From Limisphaerales bacterium (GTDB lineage Bacteria; Verrucomicrobiota; Verrucomicrobiia; Limisphaerales; UBA11358), in contig JANYFN010000166.1 of NCBI GenBank assembly GCA_025362675.1, positions 1-48,615 on the forward strand: DNA of 48,615 nucleotides. The letters are read 5' to 3'. The position numbers and the translations under genes were made by a program. Positions 11,616-48,428 of the stretch are shown piece after piece; positions within the stretch are counted from its first letter, which is position 1; each line of letters begins with the position of its first letter. The notes under the pieces were generated by a model. It did no database searches, was not told where the DNA came from, and saw only the letters and a program-made list of their open reading frames with translations.

Positions 11616-11630
11616 TAGGGGAAAACCCTA
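11616..11630. promoter_or_regulatory. 15-bp palindrome TAGGG-GAAAA-CCCTA in divergent intergenic region
   Basis: Same arms/spacing as 47037-47051. Confidence 0.5.
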
Positions 11631-11735: not shown

Positions 11736-12515
11736 ATGAAAACACTTCACAACAACTTGGTATGCGCCATGGTGGCTATGGCGCTAGGAACAGCCGCAAC
11801 CGTCGGGGCGGCAAACAGCAAAGATTCAAGCGCCAGCTTTCCCGTTTTGAGCAAGGCGACGCAAATCGAGCTCCCAGCCAAGGCTGCGGAACTGGTTTCA
11901 AAAGCCGATGCCAAGCACCGCGAGCAAATGACGATTGACGTCGTCAAAGCAGCCGTGGGCTTAAACCCGGCCGCCGCGCCAAACATTGTGGCCAGCATTG
12001 CGCACGCAAATCCTGAAATGGCAGCCACCGCCGCTGCGACTGCCGCCTCACTCCTGCCCGATAATGCGGCCGAAATTGCCCGAGTTGCGGCTGTGGCAGC
12101 TCCGAAAAAATCCGGCCAGATTGTGACCGCAGTGTGCCGCGTTGTGCCGAAGCAATATAAAGCAATTGCCAACGCAGTTGCGGAAGCGGCACCCGATCAA
12201 ACCAAGCAGATTTTGGCGGGTCTCTCCACCGCCTTTCCCATGCTTGAGATGCCGCTTAACAAGATTATTTTATCCTACAGTGGCAACAATATTCCCACTG
12301 TGCCCTCAGTTCTTAACCAAGTGCCGTCCAGCCTAGTTCCCACGCCCACGGTTGCGCCGACCACGACTGCGACTGAGCCAACAGCTACCACGGGTTCACC
12401 GCAGCTTGCTCCGCCCACTTATGGCGCACCTTATGTGATACCTCCTGGCGGCCACGTAAACTTGGATCCAGGCTCGGGCGTAACAGTGCCTGTGCGTAAC
12501 TATGCGGCACCCTGA
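11736..12515 (+). CDS. Ala-rich secreted protein of unknown function
   Basis: Signal peptide; periodic 'xVxAAxxxxPxxAxxIxxAxA' pattern; followed by strong terminator. Confidence 0.75.
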   Translation: MKTLHNNLVCAMVAMALGTAATVGAANSKDSSASFPVLSKATQIELPAKAAELVSKADAKHREQMTIDVVKAAVGLNPAAAPNIVASIAHANPEMAATAAATAASLLPDNAAEIARVAAVAAPKKSGQIVTAVCRVVPKQYKAIANAVAEAAPDQTKQILAGLSTAFPMLEMPLNKIILSYSGNNIPTVPSVLNQVPSSLVPTPTVAPTTTATEPTATTGSPQLAPPTYGAPYVIPPGGHVNLDPGSGVTVPVRNYAAP

Positions 12516-17002: not shown

Positions 17003-18517
17003 ATGAATTTCTATCAACTGGGATTTTCCGCGCTACTTGGTTTTGGGGTTTGTTTAGCAACCATCTGGCTGGTCCTTCGATTGTATCACCAGAAAAAAGT
17101 GAACATCACCAATCGAATTGAGGCCCATCACTCTAATGCGGTGGCAATGCCACGACTGGGTGGTATTGGGCTGGTCGCGGCTTTCATCTTAACCTTATTG
17201 ACTACAATTGATTTTGCGGTGTATCCATTTGCGTGGAATATTGCCATTTTTTCGGTAGCCATGTTTGGGGTCGGTATTTGGGATGATTTTCGTCCCTTAG
17301 GAGCCAAGAAAAAGCTCGTAGGCCAAATATTGATTGCCACGGCGACTTATTTAAGCGGCATCGGTATCTATAAGTTTCAGATTCCTTTCTCGATGCAAAT
17401 CATAGACCTAGGGGAATGGTCTGGGCTAGTTACAATCTTGTGGGTGGTCGGCTTGACTAATCTGATCAACCTCATTGACGGCGTGGATGGATTGGCGGGC
17501 GGCATTTGTCTGATGCTAATGTTCCTGATGATCTTTGTCGGCAACCAATGCTGCGCGAGCCTGATTGCAGCCGGCATGTGTGGCGCGTTGCTGGCCTTTC
17601 TAAGGTATAACTTCCCGCCAGCGCGGATTTACCTAGGCGATGGCGGCGCATATTTTCTCGGTTTTTTAATCGCCTGTTTGACCATCAGGAGTTCTCAAAA
17701 AGGTGCCGTTTTTGCGGCGTTAACCGCGCCGCTATTCGTTTTGGCGCTCCCCATCGTGGACACTAGCTTGGCTATTTTGCGGCGGGGATTGAATGGCCTC
17801 CCATTATTCCGGCCGGATCGTCGCCATATCCACCACCGGATGCTGGGCATGGGCATGTCCCGGCGACAACTGGTGCTGTGTGCTTATGGCTTCACCGCCT
17901 TTTTTCTCGCGCTGGGTTTTGCCGCGTTCTGGTTGCGCGGAGAACATTTTGCCGTGTTAGTAGGGATTAGTCTGCTAGCTATCGTGTGTGTGGCGGGAAC
18001 ACTGCGATTCAGTCGCCAATGGTTTGCCGTGAGCCGCGTCGTGGGCTATTCGCTAGAAGTGCGCGCGGAAATTCAATATGCACTCGCCCAGTCCCGCTGG
18101 CTCGCCTTGGAAGGATCCCGCACGCCTAACTTATTGCACTTGAGTCAGGACGTGGTTTTCATCGCGCGCAAACTTGGATTCACCAGCGTTCAAATCCAGT
18201 TGGAAGATGACGTGCAACAATGGCAGATAGTTCCCGTCTCAGATACGGAGCAACATTTTTTTCAGCATAAGCTCCCCGGCCATCGTTACTGCTTTATCAA
18301 ACTTGGGATCAAGTATCCGAACCCGACTTCAACCAACTATTCCGACATCCCCAAGGAATTTTGTATGATGAGCGAGTTGGTGGCTGAAGGCTGGGCCAAG
18401 GCAATCAAATCCTGGCAAATCCAAAGAGGTTTTCCTTTACGGTTTGATTTACTGACGCTGACTGACCCCGATCCGGCGGAAGCCATGCCACCGATCAAAC
18501 CCCTACCAGCGCCATAA
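17003..18517 (+). CDS. WecA/MraY-family undecaprenyl-phosphate sugar-1-phosphate transferase with soluble C-terminal extension
   Basis: Multi-TM; 'PRLGGIG', 'NLINLIDGVDGLAGG', 'YLGDGGAYFLGF', 'RRHIHHR' motifs; track ORF starts at 16865 but ATG at 17003 fits family N-terminus. Confidence 0.88.
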   Translation: MNFYQLGFSALLGFGVCLATIWLVLRLYHQKKVNITNRIEAHHSNAVAMPRLGGIGLVAAFILTLLTTIDFAVYPFAWNIAIFSVAMFGVGIWDDFRPLGAKKKLVGQILIATATYLSGIGIYKFQIPFSMQIIDLGEWSGLVTILWVVGLTNLINLIDGVDGLAGGICLMLMFLMIFVGNQCCASLIAAGMCGALLAFLRYNFPPARIYLGDGGAYFLGFLIACLTIRSSQKGAVFAALTAPLFVLALPIVDTSLAILRRGLNGLPLFRPDRRHIHHRMLGMGMSRRQLVLCAYGFTAFFLALGFAAFWLRGEHFAVLVGISLLAIVCVAGTLRFSRQWFAVSRVVGYSLEVRAEIQYALAQSRWLALEGSRTPNLLHLSQDVVFIARKLGFTSVQIQLEDDVQQWQIVPVSDTEQHFFQHKLPGHRYCFIKLGIKYPNPTSTNYSDIPKEFCMMSELVAEGWAKAIKSWQIQRGFPLRFDLLTLTDPDPAEAMPPIKPLPAP

Positions 18518-18518
18518 G

Positions 18519-20150
18519 ATGACGGGCGCGGCAAATAAATATCCGACTCGCTCTGGTAACAAAATATCCACTCCCGATCTGAACCGTGCGGCGGCGCCCA
18601 CTCGTCGATTCCGCTCCCGAATCCGCGCCTGGTTTCCGCTTCGCCCGTTGGATATCCTGAGCTACCGGATATGCGATGAGCTAAGCGGGCTGCTGATTTT
18701 CCTCATGCTGGTGTTCAGTCCGTGGGCACTGGGCACCACCGAAGCCTGGTCCATCCAGATCATGAACCGCGCAGGTTACGCGCTCGCCGTTCTGCTGCTG
18801 ATCAAATGGTTCATCCGCGAAGTAAAAGGATTTCCCGCGCTCCGTTGGGATGAATGCTCCAGCCGCGTCCGTGGTGCAGATGAACCGTATTCTCCCACGC
18901 GCAATTCGGTCGCCCGCATCCTCGCTGCGATCACCCTGTTACTGCTGGCGTATTGTCTCATGGCCGCATTGAACGCCGGCGCCACGTATCATCCGGAAAC
19001 CAAATGGTTCGAATACCATCATTATATCTCGTGGCTGCCCCACAGTTTTGACAGCCAACGCTCTTGGTTCTACTTCTGGATGTATCTCGGCCTCGCCGGC
19101 ATCTTCTGGGCCGTTCAGGATTGGTTGTGCGGGATGACCACGACGGAGGAACGGAGCGTCCGCACCCAGGCGGACAATGCCTCCGCGCCTTCGACCGGCG
19201 TTTTGCCAGCCCGACTACGCGCGCTCCTTTGGCTCCTGTGCCTCAACGGTGCGGTGCTCGGCGTGGAAGGAATTATCCAACGGGCGGCCGGCTCGGATAA
19301 CTTGCTATTTCTGGTGCATCCGCATGTGAACCCCGAAGGCGTCACCCAATTCGGACCCTACGCCTATCGCTCCAACGCCGCGCAATATTTCAACCTGCTC
19401 TGGCCCGTTTGCCTCGCCTTCTGGTGGCGCTTGCAACGCAACGGCGGCTTGCGAAATCGCGCGCAACCGACCCTGCTCTTGTGCGCGGCAATCATGGCCG
19501 CCTGCCCGTTCATTGCCTCCAGCCGCGGGAGCGCCCTGACTGCGGCAACCATGATTATTTTAGCCGTCGCCTATCTCGCGTTCTCGTCCCTACCCGGCTT
19601 CGAGCGACGACCGAGTGAAAGCCAGCACGGCGGGAAAACTATTTCGCTACTAACCTTATTCTTCAGCGTGGCGCTGGGCTTAGGCTGGTATTTTGGGTGG
19701 GATACCTTGGCCCCGCGCATGGAACAACTCGGCGAAGGGTTTGATGGCCGCGAAGCCATGTATGCCGCCGCCCGCCCCATGGCGGCAGATTACCCGTGGC
19801 TCGGGACCGGGCCGGGCACCTTTGCCACCGCATTCCAGTTTTATCGTTTTTCCAACGCCACCTATTGGCCCGAGCAATTGCACAACGACTGGCTGGAGAC
19901 CCGCATCACTTTCGGTTGGATCGGCATGGCGCTCGCACTCGCCGCGCTGGCTTGCGTCTTTTTGCGCCGACTCGTGCCGGGACAAATTCGTGCCGGTCGC
20001 CGCTTCATTTTTCTAGGCTGGCTGGCACTCATCGGCTGCCTCGTTCAGGCGATCTTTGATTTCCCCCTGCAAATCCATTCCATCCTCCTACTTTTCCTCG
20101 TCATCTCCGCCATCCTCTTCAACGTCAGCGGACGCCGCCCGCACCGCTGA
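18519..20150 (+). CDS. O-antigen ligase/polymerase-like membrane protein (Wzy_C type)
   Basis: Multi-TM; 'GTGPGTFATAFQFYRFSNATYWPEQLHNDWLETRITFGWIG'. Confidence 0.85.
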   Translation: MTGAANKYPTRSGNKISTPDLNRAAAPTRRFRSRIRAWFPLRPLDILSYRICDELSGLLIFLMLVFSPWALGTTEAWSIQIMNRAGYALAVLLLIKWFIREVKGFPALRWDECSSRVRGADEPYSPTRNSVARILAAITLLLLAYCLMAALNAGATYHPETKWFEYHHYISWLPHSFDSQRSWFYFWMYLGLAGIFWAVQDWLCGMTTTEERSVRTQADNASAPSTGVLPARLRALLWLLCLNGAVLGVEGIIQRAAGSDNLLFLVHPHVNPEGVTQFGPYAYRSNAAQYFNLLWPVCLAFWWRLQRNGGLRNRAQPTLLLCAAIMAACPFIASSRGSALTAATMIILAVAYLAFSSLPGFERRPSESQHGGKTISLLTLFFSVALGLGWYFGWDTLAPRMEQLGEGFDGREAMYAAARPMAADYPWLGTGPGTFATAFQFYRFSNATYWPEQLHNDWLETRITFGWIGMALALAALACVFLRRLVPGQIRAGRRFIFLGWLALIGCLVQAIFDFPLQIHSILLLFLVISAILFNVSGRRPHR

Positions 20151-36555: not shown

Positions 36556-37142
36556 AAAAATTTTTTTGCAGTTTTAACCGCCGTCGCATGATGCACCCAA
36601 AGTTTCCATCAGGCAATGGCTCGTAACCCTACCCGCTACAATTATTTTATCGCAACCAACCATTCATTCAAAAGGGCACACGCAAAGCTGGTGGCCGAAT
36701 CGCTCATTGCGCAGGGGATAATTAGTTCACGTTCGTGCCACACGCTACCGCCGGAATAAACCGCCTTCAGCATCGTTTAGACAAAGCAACGGATCACGCA
36801 GCCGCCCGTTTCCGTCTCGATGGGAATCCGTAGTTACCGAGCTTGAAAAATTCCCACGGCTATTCCGGCAATAATAAAATTTTCGGCTCCGTCCAGAAAT
36901 GCAGGTTGTCGGACGACATGATTCCGCACGCTAATCGCAGCCTTCTGCACGGTCATTGACCGACAGGACGCGGCATTGCAGCGTGAGAAATGCTTTCGTG
37001 ACGGCGCAACGCAGATTGGTTGTGAACGCGCCGACACCTAATTTACTCGGTAGATAATCGCGGAGAAACGCGATCTTGCGAATGGCAGCGATGAGCAAAA
37101 TGAATTGTCATGCGGCGCAACGGGAAGTGATTGACCTCACGA

Positions 37143-37472
37143 TTATTTATTTTTTTGGTTACCGCGCGCGGCGCTAAAATCTGACCAGAAGGTGCTGACG
37201 ATGCCCGCGCCCTTCAACACCGTTTGCCACCAAGCTGGCTTTGTGTCATCGGCCGCGGCTTTGTTGCGGGTCAATGCGGAAAGGCCTGATACTAAAGAGA
37301 CCGCCGAAGAAATGATGGATTTGATCGCGCTCGCACGGACGGTCAAGGCGTGGGTTTCCGCTTTGATCTCCTGCCATTCCTGAAGCATTTGGGCACGGTT
37401 GAGCTCGCTTTCCGCGATCAACAATTGTTTGCGGGTAGCGAGTGAGTTCACACGAGGATTTTTTCCAAACAT
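37143..37472 (-). CDS. YqjK-like small protein
   Basis: Start MFGKNPRVNSLATRKQLLIAESELNRAQMLQEW fits; overlaps the upstream holin-X ORF stop. Confidence 0.6.
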   Translation of the reverse strand: MFGKNPRVNSLATRKQLLIAESELNRAQMLQEWQEIKAETHALTVRASAIKSIISSAVSLVSGLSALTRNKAAADDTKPAWWQTVLKGAGIVSTFWSDFSAARGNQKNK

Positions 37473-37837
37473 GCGCGGTCCTTTCGGAGTTGCTCCAGTG
37501 ACGCGGAAAGAGTTTGCCAATTGCGCAACACGCCCATGAGTTGCAAGTATAGGCAAATCCCGGTGGCCGCATAGAGCAGCGTCAGAATCAGCAACACGGC
37601 CAACGGCGACCACGCCCACAACCAAACGGCGATCGCCGCCGTGAGGGTGAGGCCAGCAAGCAAGCCAAACACCGCGATGCCGAGCGCCAGCAGAAACGCG
37701 TGCAGCAGCCGCTCGCGTTCTTCCTGCACTTCCACCGCCAGTAATTCCAGACGGTTTTCGCCGATGGTCAACAACCGACGCGCGAAAGTTTTCGAGGTCG
37801 TGGCCAGTTGCCGCAAGCCGACGGTGGAAGGTTCCAT
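37448..37837 (-). CDS. Phage holin family / Holin-X (DUF1469-like) membrane protein
   Basis: Internal start MEPSTVGLRQLATTSKTFARRLLTIGENRLELLAVEVQEERERL; two TMs. Confidence 0.75.
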   Translation of the reverse strand: MEPSTVGLRQLATTSKTFARRLLTIGENRLELLAVEVQEERERLLHAFLLALGIAVFGLLAGLTLTAAIAVWLWAWSPLAVLLILTLLYAATGICLYLQLMGVLRNWQTLSASLEQLRKDRACLEKILV

Positions 37838-37844
37838 AACGAAA

Positions 37845-38150
37845 TCAGTCGCGTTTACAGTTGCCACGGCGGGCGAGGAGATAGCCGAGGAGCGCCCCGA
37901 CGCCGACGCCGATGGCGATGGCTTGGTAAGGATTTTCGCGGACGGTTTGATCGGCAACTTTCGCGCCGGCGATCGCGCGGTCACGGACTTGACCGCCAAC
38001 TTCCTTGGCACGATCAAGCGCAGCGGCAAGGCGCTTGCGGGCTTCGCCGACTTTTTCCCCAGCGACATCAGCCGTCGCCGCCATCATCGCGCGCGCGTCA
38101 TCCGCGAGTTGTCCGAGATCATTACCGACTGCTTGATTTTCTTTATTCAT
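37845..38150 (-). CDS. DUF883 (ElaB/YqjD) family membrane protein
   Basis: Start MNKENQAVGNDLGQLADDARAMM; C-term 'VRENPYQAIAIGVGVGALLGYLLARR'. Confidence 0.85.
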   Translation of the reverse strand: MNKENQAVGNDLGQLADDARAMMAATADVAGEKVGEARKRLAAALDRAKEVGGQVRDRAIAGAKVADQTVRENPYQAIAIGVGVGALLGYLLARRGNCKRD

Positions 38151-38287
38151 AGTTTTGATTTGTTTTGGATTTTTTTTAACCGCAAATTTTTGCAAACGGG
38201 ACGCGCCGACATCCTGAGAAAGTGATTCGCCAGGCCACACCGTTCATAAAAGTCCCTTCAGATTAGCGGCGGAAGCAAGTGGCAACT

Positions 38288-38305
38288 ATGGGGTGTTCAC
38301 CCCAT
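38288..38305. promoter_or_regulatory. Perfect palindrome ATGGGGTG-TT-CACCCCAT
   Basis: Between the HupE/UreJ stop (38319) and the DUF883 start (38150); no U-tract. Confidence 0.55.
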
Positions 38306-44275: not shown

Positions 44276-44341
44276 AGTAAGAATTGAATGGTTATAGGTT
44301 TGTTACCCCCGCAACCACCTGGCGGCGGTTGCAGGGCAGCG

Positions 44342-45615: not shown

Positions 45616-46968
45616 TTAATTACTGCTGGTAGTAAGCTGGACTTCCAACTGATTATCCACATTTCCGGTGTTGGCGATGCGGTTGGCAATGTCGCCGATC
45701 CGGCGTTTTTCTTCCGCCGTATTGACCGGTCCCCGCAACGTGACCTGGCCATCTACCGTGATGATCTTGACGTTCTTGGCATTCGTGGACATTCCGTCTT
45801 CAGCAATGATTTCTTTGCGGATTTGCGCCGTGGTGTTGATGTCCGACTGATTATTTCCCTGATCAATCGGGGTCAAGGTGCGGTCATCGCGCTCACTGAC
45901 ATTGCGCCGGGAGTTGTCCGCCTCCGAGACATGACTCGTAGTGAAGTAAGGTTCAAGGTTATAGGCCCGATAAACACCACCAATGTAATTAGTCTGGTCG
46001 AAATCAGGCCATTGACTGTTCTTAAAGTGTGGCGAATTAGCCAGCAACTCTTTACTCGTATCCATGACGAGGTCTTTATGGTTTTCGCTAAACTGGAGCA
46101 ACGTCGGCGGGATGGCACTTAACTCATCGCCGATACCCAGATAGCCACCCGAAGCGACAATCACTGCCACAATGCGACCGGCGGCGACATCCACCGCGAA
46201 ATTTTTCACCCCGCCAATCTTATCATCTTGTAAATCTCTTACGGCCATCCCCATCAACTTGCTCGCCATCTGCACATAGCCAAGGCGAGCTTGTCCTTTA
46301 CCACCGCTAGTTGAATCGCGATTTGCGATGACGGCGGAGGTAGAGGTGGTGGAAGTATTGTTTGTGTCCGCGTAGTTCCGAACTCTACTCACGCCCGAGT
46401 TGTCATCCATCCGGCGTGCCGTGTCGTTATAAATGGTCCCAAACGTGTTAAGGGCCACCGCCACATCATCGTTTTCATGGCCCGCGGCGGCATAAGGCTG
46501 ATCGCCATAGTTGCCATAGACCTCATTCAACCCGGTGGCCTGCGTTGCTCCGTTCAAATGCAAACTGTTAAATTTAGTTCCGGCCAGAAATTTTTTCTTG
46601 TTGGCATCCAGATGTAACATGTGACGCGAAATATCATGATGCAGCGCCCCAGGCGGGACCGCGATGAGTGTAGGCCGCAAGCCCATGAATCCACCGCTAG
46701 CGACGACCACCAGCACCATGCGCCCGGACGACACGTCCAGCGCCAAATCGGACACTTTGCCCAATTTCTCGTTTTGGTAGTTTTGAATTTCTAGTCCGAT
46801 CACGTCGCTGGCCTTGACGACATTGTTGAGCCGGTCAGACTGATTCATCGAGGCATTATTTGAGCCGTCTTCATTCATACTGACATCATTAGTTTCAGCG
46901 ACGAGCATCGTCGGCGAGAGCAGACCGACGGCAGCGACGCCGGTGATGATATGTAATTTCAATTTCAT
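45616..46968 (-). CDS. Exported protein with two PRC-barrel domains and C-terminal BON domain
   Basis: Duplicated 'KLGKVSDLALDVSSGRMVLVVVASGGFMG' / 'KIGGVKNFAVDVAAGRIVAVIVASGGYLG'; C-term 'NVKIITVDGQVTLRGPVNTAEEKRRIGDIA'. Confidence 0.9.
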   Translation of the reverse strand: MKLKLHIITGVAAVGLLSPTMLVAETNDVSMNEDGSNNASMNQSDRLNNVVKASDVIGLEIQNYQNEKLGKVSDLALDVSSGRMVLVVVASGGFMGLRPTLIAVPPGALHHDISRHMLHLDANKKKFLAGTKFNSLHLNGATQATGLNEVYGNYGDQPYAAAGHENDDVAVALNTFGTIYNDTARRMDDNSGVSRVRNYADTNNTSTTSTSAVIANRDSTSGGKGQARLGYVQMASKLMGMAVRDLQDDKIGGVKNFAVDVAAGRIVAVIVASGGYLGIGDELSAIPPTLLQFSENHKDLVMDTSKELLANSPHFKNSQWPDFDQTNYIGGVYRAYNLEPYFTTSHVSEADNSRRNVSERDDRTLTPIDQGNNQSDINTTAQIRKEIIAEDGMSTNAKNVKIITVDGQVTLRGPVNTAEEKRRIGDIANRIANTGNVDNQLEVQLTTSSN

Positions 46969-47036
46969 TATGTGATAAGTGTTTGATGGTTTTTTGTTAC
47001 CACACTGACTTTAAATTCAATCTCTTTTCCCAGCTA

Positions 47037-47051
47037 TAGGGTGTTACCCTA
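47037..47051. promoter_or_regulatory. Perfect palindrome TAGGGT-GTT-ACCCTA
   Basis: 69-83 nt upstream of the PRC/BON gene start. Confidence 0.6.
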
Positions 47052-47060
47052 ACCACCGCC

Positions 47061-47540
47061 TTACAACGGCAGCCGGTTGGGTAATGGCTGCCCCTGCCAG
47101 TTGGGTGGTGGCGCAGTCTCCGGGTGGTTGCTAGCAACCCCATATAAAACATCTTTAACCGTGTTCAACAATTCCTCGAAGGTATAGGGCTTTAGCAGCA
47201 CCGCCGTCGGACGCAGACTCGGATAGGCGGTGAAAGACCAATCTGGCAAACTTCCGGTCGCCATGATAACTGGCAAGGCCAGATGTGCGGCGCGCGCTTT
47301 CTTCAACAAGTCCACGCCCGACAAATTCGGCATCTTATGATCGGTAACCATCAAGTCGTAGGCGTTTGCCTGGAGCGCGTCCCAAGCCGCCCGACCATCT
47401 TCAGCCGCATCCACCTGATAGCCTGAGTATACCAATACTTCGATGTTGAGACGGCGAAGCACCGGCTCGTCTTCCACTACCAGAATGCGTTGGCGCAAGA
47501 CCGCGCCGGGCTGCAACGTCATATTTTTAGCTGTCAACAT
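47061..47540 (-). CDS. Response regulator receiver protein
   Basis: 'QRILVVEDEPVLRRLN', 'DLMVTDHKMPNLSGVDLL', 'LLKPYTFEELL'. Confidence 0.93.
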   Translation of the reverse strand: MLTAKNMTLQPGAVLRQRILVVEDEPVLRRLNIEVLVYSGYQVDAAEDGRAAWDALQANAYDLMVTDHKMPNLSGVDLLKKARAAHLALPVIMATGSLPDWSFTAYPSLRPTAVLLKPYTFEELLNTVKDVLYGVASNHPETAPPPNWQGQPLPNRLPL

Positions 47541-47568: not shown

Positions 47569-47766
47569 TCAGCGCACCTGCGGCACGCGGATGTCCCCGG
47601 TATGTCCCAGCACCCCAAAGGCGGACAATAGCCACAACACCACACAGATTACTACGACGATGTTGAGGATTTTTTTGATCTTAGCGTCCATCGGGATGTA
47701 AGTATTGACGAGCCAGAGCAGCACGCCAACGATGATGAGCGTAACGACAAGCGAGATTAGTGACAT
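47569..47766 (-). CDS. Thivi_2564-type small membrane protein
   Basis: MSLISLVVTLIIVGVLLWLVNTYIPMDAKIKKILNIVVVICVVLWLL. Confidence 0.85.
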   Translation of the reverse strand: MSLISLVVTLIIVGVLLWLVNTYIPMDAKIKKILNIVVVICVVLWLLSAFGVLGHTGDIRVPQVR

Positions 47767-47841
47767 ACTGATGCTCCGGTTTGATTGGGTTGGTGATAAT
47801 TCACACTGCGACTCTAGGTCAAATAGACACTGGAGGATATG

Positions 47842-47852
47842 GGGTATTACCC
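47842..47852. promoter_or_regulatory. Palindrome GGGT-ATT-ACCC
   Basis: 76-86 nt upstream of the Thivi_2564-type gene. Confidence 0.5.
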
Positions 47853-48428
47853 GACCTCGCCGCGACTTCGGACTTCAGTGGGATGCAAAACTCGATGCAC
47901 CGCTTCTCCAAACGCCCGCGCGGAGCTTGGTTTATCCAACAATCCTTTGAATCCAAGTGCCAACACTCTATCCGGAGTCATTACGCCGCTGTAGCCCGTA
48001 ATGATGATGATTGGCAAATTCGGTTGGAACTCCAGTAACTGACGACCTAGCTTGGCCCCGTCCATGACTGGCATGGTTAGATCGGTGATGACTAAGTCGA
48101 ACGCCTCCGGTTTGGCACGCACGGCGGCGATGGCTTCAAGCGGACTGGTTTTCGTGGTCACGACATACCCCAGTCGCTCGAGAATTTTCTTCCCCAGCTT
48201 GGCCAGCACCGCTTCATCATCCACAAACAAAATATGTTCGCCGCCGCCTTTCGGAATGGGCGCTTCCACGATTCCATAATCAAAAAATTCCGTTTCAAAA
48301 ACTGGAAAATACAAATGAAACACTGTGCCTTCGCCAGGCTCGCTATAAACGAAGATGCCGCCGTCATGGGGGCGCGCAAGACCGTCATCACTGGCAAACC
48401 TGATTGCAACCATGTTTCCACGAGCCAC
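47847..48428 (-). pseudogene. C-terminal remnant of a hybrid histidine kinase (end of HATPase + intact-looking receiver domain)
   Basis: 'HDGGIFVYSEPGEGTVFHLYFPV' (HATPase end) then 'ILFVDDEAVLAKLGKKILERLGY...DLVITDLTMPVMDG'; no kinase core upstream in frame. Confidence 0.6.

Follow-up and report, generated by a model that had tools for sequence, protein, structure and literature searches.

Promoter-coupled palindromic operators of a predicted stress and envelope regulon in Verrucomicrobiota and their candidate NarL-type regulator

Palindromes that stand before three genes of a Limisphaerales contig (48,615 nucleotides, hereafter the window) belong to a set of conserved sites that share one promoter geometry and precede orthologous genes in other genomes. 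A NarL-type response regulator, RR-A, co-occurs with these sites and lies close to them, and sites are found before its own operon. We propose, with a probability of roughly 0.8, that the palindromes are operators joined to the promoters of a regulon of stress and envelope genes across Verrucomicrobiota, and that they are bound by kinase-phosphorylated RR-A, which would act by class II activation. To our knowledge, regulation in Verrucomicrobiota has barely been mapped. The analysis provides a predicted stress regulon at the level of the phylum, for which it gives an operator, the geometry of the promoter, a candidate regulator and a list of targets. With the consensus, many small proteins that have no annotation can be placed in this regulon.

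A first-pass annotation of the window had listed six elements, described as a recurring TAGGGN5CCCTA palindrome and interpreted as a shared operator. Every quoted string was found where it had been placed in the window; taken overall, the observation was partly confirmed and the interpretation partly supported. In the form TAGGGN5CCCTA, the motif was uninformative. Six matches were present in the whole 4.3-Mb genome (both strands) versus six in the reversed control, and therefore this form is not enriched; with up to two mismatches, five matches were found in the window versus a shuffle mean of 8.95, i.e., below expectation. The string GGGTNNTACCC had 12 genome matches versus four in the control, and the flanks of these matches, read in gene direction, contained further common letters, GGGTWAYACCCC and then AYA. 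The re-derived motif, GGGTNAYACCCYAYA, matched the genome exactly nine times versus zero in the control. The enrichment that the annotation had put forward as a check was, in the form in which it was run, far above the reversed control: across 59 genomes drawn from this genus and order, GGGTNAYACCCYAYA (type I) had 124 matches and a second class, ATGGGGTGAACACCCCATAGC (type II, perfect palindromes counted on both strands), had 136, versus zero in both cases.

An alignment of 83 distinct sites yielded the type I consensus GGTAGGGTWAYACCCCATAGC, with TAnnnT after it at positions 36-41. The annotation was thus right that a conserved element exists, but the true consensus is longer, asymmetric (with a tail, CATAGC) and locked to a -10 element, so that the two make up a promoter-operator unit. 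Type II has 8-bp arms and a centre one base longer than that of type I. It takes in the longer-centred palindrome at 38288, which had been listed as a variant; the site is genuine, but its class is separate from type I and equally conserved. Chance palindromes in a single window are scarcely credible as an explanation: while TAGGGN5CCCTA stays at control level in this genome and three of the six listed elements do not fit, 260 conserved matches stand against zero in the control, and for the three real sites a chance origin is already refuted. Further operator-like GGGN4-6CCC strings occur in the window. A literature search for the motif strings, which did not reach most subscription journals, found no description and one unrelated match.

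The window was scored with matrices built from other genomes only, at a reporting floor of 4 bits. The top score over 60 simulated windows was 8.8 bits for type I and 16.3 bits for type II. The three sites found, with their predicted promoters and genes, are as follows:

47836..47856, minus strand: type I operator GGTCGGGTAATACCCCATATC before Thivi_2564 (site 47852, 29.0 bits; -10 score 5.0)
47811..47816, minus strand: TAGAGT, predicted -10 element for Thivi_2564, at offset 36-41 (the TAnnnT peak over 155 sites)
47569..47766, minus strand: target gene, Thivi_2564 family membrane protein, 65 aa (NCBIfam NF041949, 1.2e-22, 79.7 bits versus a cutoff of 33)
47061..47540, minus strand: receiver-only response regulator (PF00072, 1.4e-20)
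47033..47053, minus strand: type I operator GTTAGGGTAACACCCTATAGC before PRC-BON (site 47049, 28.2 bits; -10 score 4.3); its core is the palindrome annotated at 47037-47051
47008..47013, minus strand: predicted -10 element TAAAGT of the PRC-BON promoter, at offset 36-41
45616..46968, minus strand: target gene, PRC-barrel/BON exported protein, 450 aa (PF05239, 4.9e-22; PF04972, 2.9e-11)
38285..38305, minus strand: type II operator ATGGGGTGAACACCCCATAGT before DUF883 (site 38301, 35.4 bits; -10 score 5.6)
38260..38265, minus strand: predicted -10 element TAATCT of the DUF883 promoter, at offset 36-41
37845..38150, minus strand: target gene, DUF883 protein, 101 aa (PF19029, 3.3e-14; PF05957, 2.4e-07)
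37448..37837, minus strand: Phage_holin_3_6 family protein (PF07332, 2.6e-13 on ORF 37448-38068; start codon inferred from translation)

The proposal of a shared operator before DUF883, PRC/BON and Thivi_2564 therefore stands, and the spacing of 70-85 nt noted earlier was borne out, with the palindromes ending ca. 70 nt before the PRC-BON start and ca. 76 nt before the Thivi_2564 start. The remaining three elements proved not to be members: TAGGGGAAAACCCTA (11616-11630), the half-site GTAACCCTA (36623-36631, before VIT) and the half-site TGTTACCC (44301-44308) each scored under the 4-bit floor and are best read as chance. TAGGGGAAAACCCTA precedes ORF 11736-12515, which has a weak HPTransfase match.

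The Thivi_2564 operator overlaps the 3' end of an upstream receiver-domain ORF, 47847-48428. Thivi_2564 is flanked by this and a second receiver-only response regulator, 47061-47540; the latter is probably co-transcribed with it, and homologous receiver genes adjoin sites in other genomes. Receiver genes neighbouring the sites may act as phosphate sinks. The PRC-BON orthologue in locus L082 likewise bears a site. DUF883 orthologues in other genomes are mostly without a site of their own, and thus the type II site before DUF883 here is not conserved at orthologous positions; several of these orthologues follow a Thivi_2564 gene on the same strand. The Phage_holin_3_6 gene is probably in one operon with DUF883. 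No papers on Thivi_2564 were found in the literature search.

When prokaryotes were scanned with a single genome for each species, at least 110 stretches with the motif came to light; among the matches listed, nearly all were labelled Verrucomicrobia, Lentisphaerae, Kiritimatiellae, Opitutae, Spartobacteria or PVC. Exact type I sites were also seen in L150, L178 and L188, labelled Acidobacteria, Planctomycetia and Hydrogenedentes, respectively, which may reflect mislabelled bins or transfer. In a sample of the phylum, 19 of 195 genomes were positive (47 matches versus five in the control), and within the genus the distribution was patchy, several members being without any site. Conservation in orthologous promoters had also been proposed as a check. 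In the form in which this was run, sites were found before Thivi_2564, BON, OsmC, lipoprotein and PRC genes in other genomes.

The families recurring downstream of sites were Thivi_2564 (eight sites outside the window), BON-repeat protein (seven), small lipoprotein (five), receiver-only, coiled-coil lipoprotein and carbohydrate-binding-like proteins (four each), OsmC-like (three), and PRC-BON and DUF2934-like (two each); some of these names were read off the sequence and did not come from a scan. The list for this genome adds Dps-like ferritin, DUF2934, DUF3300, transglutaminase and EF-hand proteins. Judged from the family names, the predicted targets have a stress and envelope theme. A second Thivi_2564 copy (L074 7873, plus strand; G000:C98) has a good type I site ahead of it, and an early stop codon breaks the gene. 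Repetitive QAETRTEQANTRT-like coiled stretches were observed at L072:1600-2100 and L071:5663-6214 (both minus strand), and one such stretch shares its open frame with a LuxR-type HTH, which it precedes.

Three type I sites lie a few bases from contig ends (G045:C78:5-19, C130:4-18 and C153:4-18), as though repeated DNA had interrupted the assembly there. The sites could on this account belong to a mobile element or dispersed repeat whose position near stress genes is accidental. We give this next to no weight, since conservation of the flank ends at 21 bp, the -10 element excepted, and since the placement of the sites follows start codons and orthologous genes.

Of 155 type I sites, 53% had TAnnnT at offset 36, counted from the first G of GGGT, versus ca. 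1% at most other offsets; in 105 of the 155 it stood at offset 35-37. The -10 offset, first seen in 83 sites, recurred at the identical place in 73 others, which came from further contigs outside the first alignment. The -10 signal of type II sites was weaker. Among the 155 type I sites, ATG codons were most frequent at positions 48-49 (35 sites). This coincides with the predicted transcription start, so that a considerable fraction of messages is probably leaderless. An ORF start was found within 40-120 nt of 68% of independent sites versus 36% of random positions, enrichment upstream of genes being judged on the sites and the fetched loci. The centre of the inverted repeat lies ca. 31 nt ahead of the point where TAnnnT begins, i.e., at ca. 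-42, and the repeat overlaps the place where a -35 element would be. A centre near -42 with overlap of the -35 region is the usual location of a class II activator, and we infer activation, although the evidence by itself fits repression as well.

The fixed distance from the block to TAnnnT and the asymmetric tail would also fit a promoter of an alternative sigma factor, with the whole block serving as a long -35 element plus -10. This is very unlikely, given that the element is an inverted repeat that allows two spacings, that the -10 resembles the housekeeping type, and that a crude seed search of the site loci found no ECF or sigma-70 relative.

As to the regulator, the fetched loci around sites were searched with crude seeds. 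Only NarL-type regulators were found, and among these one orthologous group, RR-A, stood out. In this genome, RR-A is encoded on another contig, at the end of an operon with the order kaiC-kaiB-kaiB-kinase-orf-RR-A:

G000:C113:15756-16433: RR-A, NarL/LuxR-type response regulator, last gene of the operon (PF00072, 1.2e-30; PF00196, 1.4e-17)
G000:C113:16973-18187: PAS-HisKA_3 kinase of the RR-A operon (PF07730, 3.1e-12; PF02518, 3.4e-12)
G000:C113:18549-18854 and 18184-18534: kaiB copies
G000:C113:18854-20611: kaiC (NF006799, 413.3 versus a cutoff of 408; partial ORF)

RR-A consists of a receiver domain and a GerE (LuxR) HTH, and the kinase adjoins it in nearly all loci examined. On this contig, a type I site (15710, minus strand) follows RR-A. 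The suggestion of the first-pass annotation, a regulator perhaps of LuxR/NarL type and not evident in the window, is probably correct, with RR-A as the candidate.

In the genus, RR-A (at least 60% identity, a cut-off chosen after seeing the data) was present in 20 of 36 genomes, and exact sites occurred in 19 of the 20 with RR-A versus 8 of the 16 without it (Fisher p = 0.005, ignoring relatedness; the genomes are related and many assemblies are incomplete). In the phylum sample, RR-A (at least 64% identity) was found in seven of eight genomes with at least two sites versus none of 20 site-free genomes picked by hand. It is on the same contig as sites in G136, G201, G061, G189, G222 and G160. 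Strong sites were present inside 16 of 29 RR-A loci of 3.7 kb versus 0 of 24 paralogue loci. A site ahead of the first kinase gene of the RR-A operon, seen in ca. 10 of 16 loci examined, suggests autoregulation. In the tree, RR-A of G045 (another family) and of G136 (another order of the class), both site-bearing genomes, falls inside the genus clade, and thus RR-A seems to have moved between lineages. From this co-occurrence and closeness we infer that RR-A binds the operator.

The operators could instead serve another regulator, either a second set of NarL-type proteins, group B, or some other transcription factor. Group B adjoins sites in G032, G031, G025 and other genomes, with members near sites at:

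L055:11996-12682: group B NarL-type regulator
L085:820-1503: group B NarL-type regulator
L059:3344-4027: group B NarL-type regulator

Moreover, eight members of the genus (G002, G007, G014, G016, G017, G023, G028 and G035, several of them incomplete assemblies) have sites and no detected RR-A, and in G177, with three sites, the closest RR-A relative is only 53% identical. Group B is, however, absent (E > 1e-60) from this genome, for which reason it was rejected as the main candidate, and from all genomes tested beyond the genus, though those have sites, while RR-A co-occurs and co-locates with the sites. We therefore consider another regulator unlikely and retain RR-A.

A recognition-helix signature that would separate RR-A from its paralogues was sought and was not clean. 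The solved structures nearest to RR-A are VraR (5hev, 2.6e-45), DesR, NarL and DevR; a closest relationship to DevR/OsdR was not borne out, as the first three outscore DevR (3c3w). RR-A passes no NCBIfam equivalog cutoff among the best 25 listed (MctR, UvrY/GacA, NarL, MadR, etc.), the best being MctR at 204.6 versus 300.

In the proposed mechanism, the HisKA_3 kinase encoded beside RR-A would phosphorylate it, and an RR-A dimer would bind TAGGGT-N3-ACCCCATAGC or ATGGGGT-N4-ACCCCATAGC, centred at ca. -42 and overlapping the -35 region; the predicted RR-A binding sequence is GGTAGGGTTACACCCCATAGC. RR-A would then recruit housekeeping RNA polymerase to the TAnnnT -10 element, 19 nt further on. 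The predicted targets are Thivi_2564, BON, PRC-BON, DUF883, Dps-like ferritin, DUF2934, OsmC, lipoproteins and receiver-only proteins, with many of the messages probably leaderless.

The signal would enter through the kinase and, as gene order suggests, through Kai proteins. KaiB is under its equivalog cutoffs but matches PF07689 at 1.2e-21. KaiC (locus L296) has adjacent serines, ESGMSSLMDAW, at the presumed equivalent of the place where cyanobacterial KaiC is phosphorylated. Only ca. nine of the RR-A operons examined contain kai genes and ca. 15 RR-A loci show none; kai is thus an optional input. The cyanobacterial output regulator RpaA is mostly missing outside cyanobacteria, and it has been asked if another transcription factor reads out the Kai core (PMC5520375). 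Tentatively, and at well below even odds, the motif may be the DNA output end of a Kai-linked pathway outside cyanobacteria, in which KaiC and KaiB would set the activity of the kinase and RR-A and so switch the leaderless stress and envelope regulon. If true, RR-A would be a transcription factor reading out non-cyanobacterial Kai systems. That RR-A often ends a kaiC-kaiB-kinase operon offers these systems a concrete, testable transcriptional output.

Among known systems, DevR/DosR of Mycobacterium and OsdR of Streptomyces likewise pair a NarL-type response regulator with a palindromic GGG...CCC operator, AGGGCCGATCGGCCCT in the case of OsdR (PMC5069765). In these dormancy regulons, stress genes cluster around two-component genes (PMC5069765), and the arrangement here is similar. 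They differ in the operator letters and in having universal stress proteins as targets, while the targets here are Thivi_2564, BON, PRC, DUF883, OsmC and Dps, and kaiC and kaiB often adjoin the gene of the PAS-HisKA_3 kinase. The envelope-stress regulators VraR/LiaR belong to a different phylum, and VraR is the nearest solved relative of RR-A; we know of no operator common to them and RR-A. As far as sequence tells, the system has the features of a NarL/FixJ two-component regulon, namely REC and GerE domains, an adjoining HisKA_3 kinase and an inverted-repeat operator at an activating position, and, with predicted KaiC and KaiB homologues in the operon, also that of a kaiBC-type signalling operon. 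In Methylobacterium, which has a kaiC1-kaiB2-kaiB1-kaiR1 operon, KaiC proteins affect UV and heat survival (PMC8069551), and the Legionella kai operon is linked to stress survival, as cited in PMC5520375. The Methylobacterium operon has the same kaiC-kaiB-kaiB order, followed by signalling genes, as the RR-A operon here. Unlike these two, the operon described here has as its last gene a NarL-type regulator for which an operator and a regulon are predicted, and many RR-A operons are without kai genes. In E. coli, OsmY-like BON proteins, Dps, OsmC and DUF883 are general stress targets of RpoS. The target families thus overlap, but control in E. coli is by an alternative sigma factor, whereas here it would be by an operator and a response regulator.
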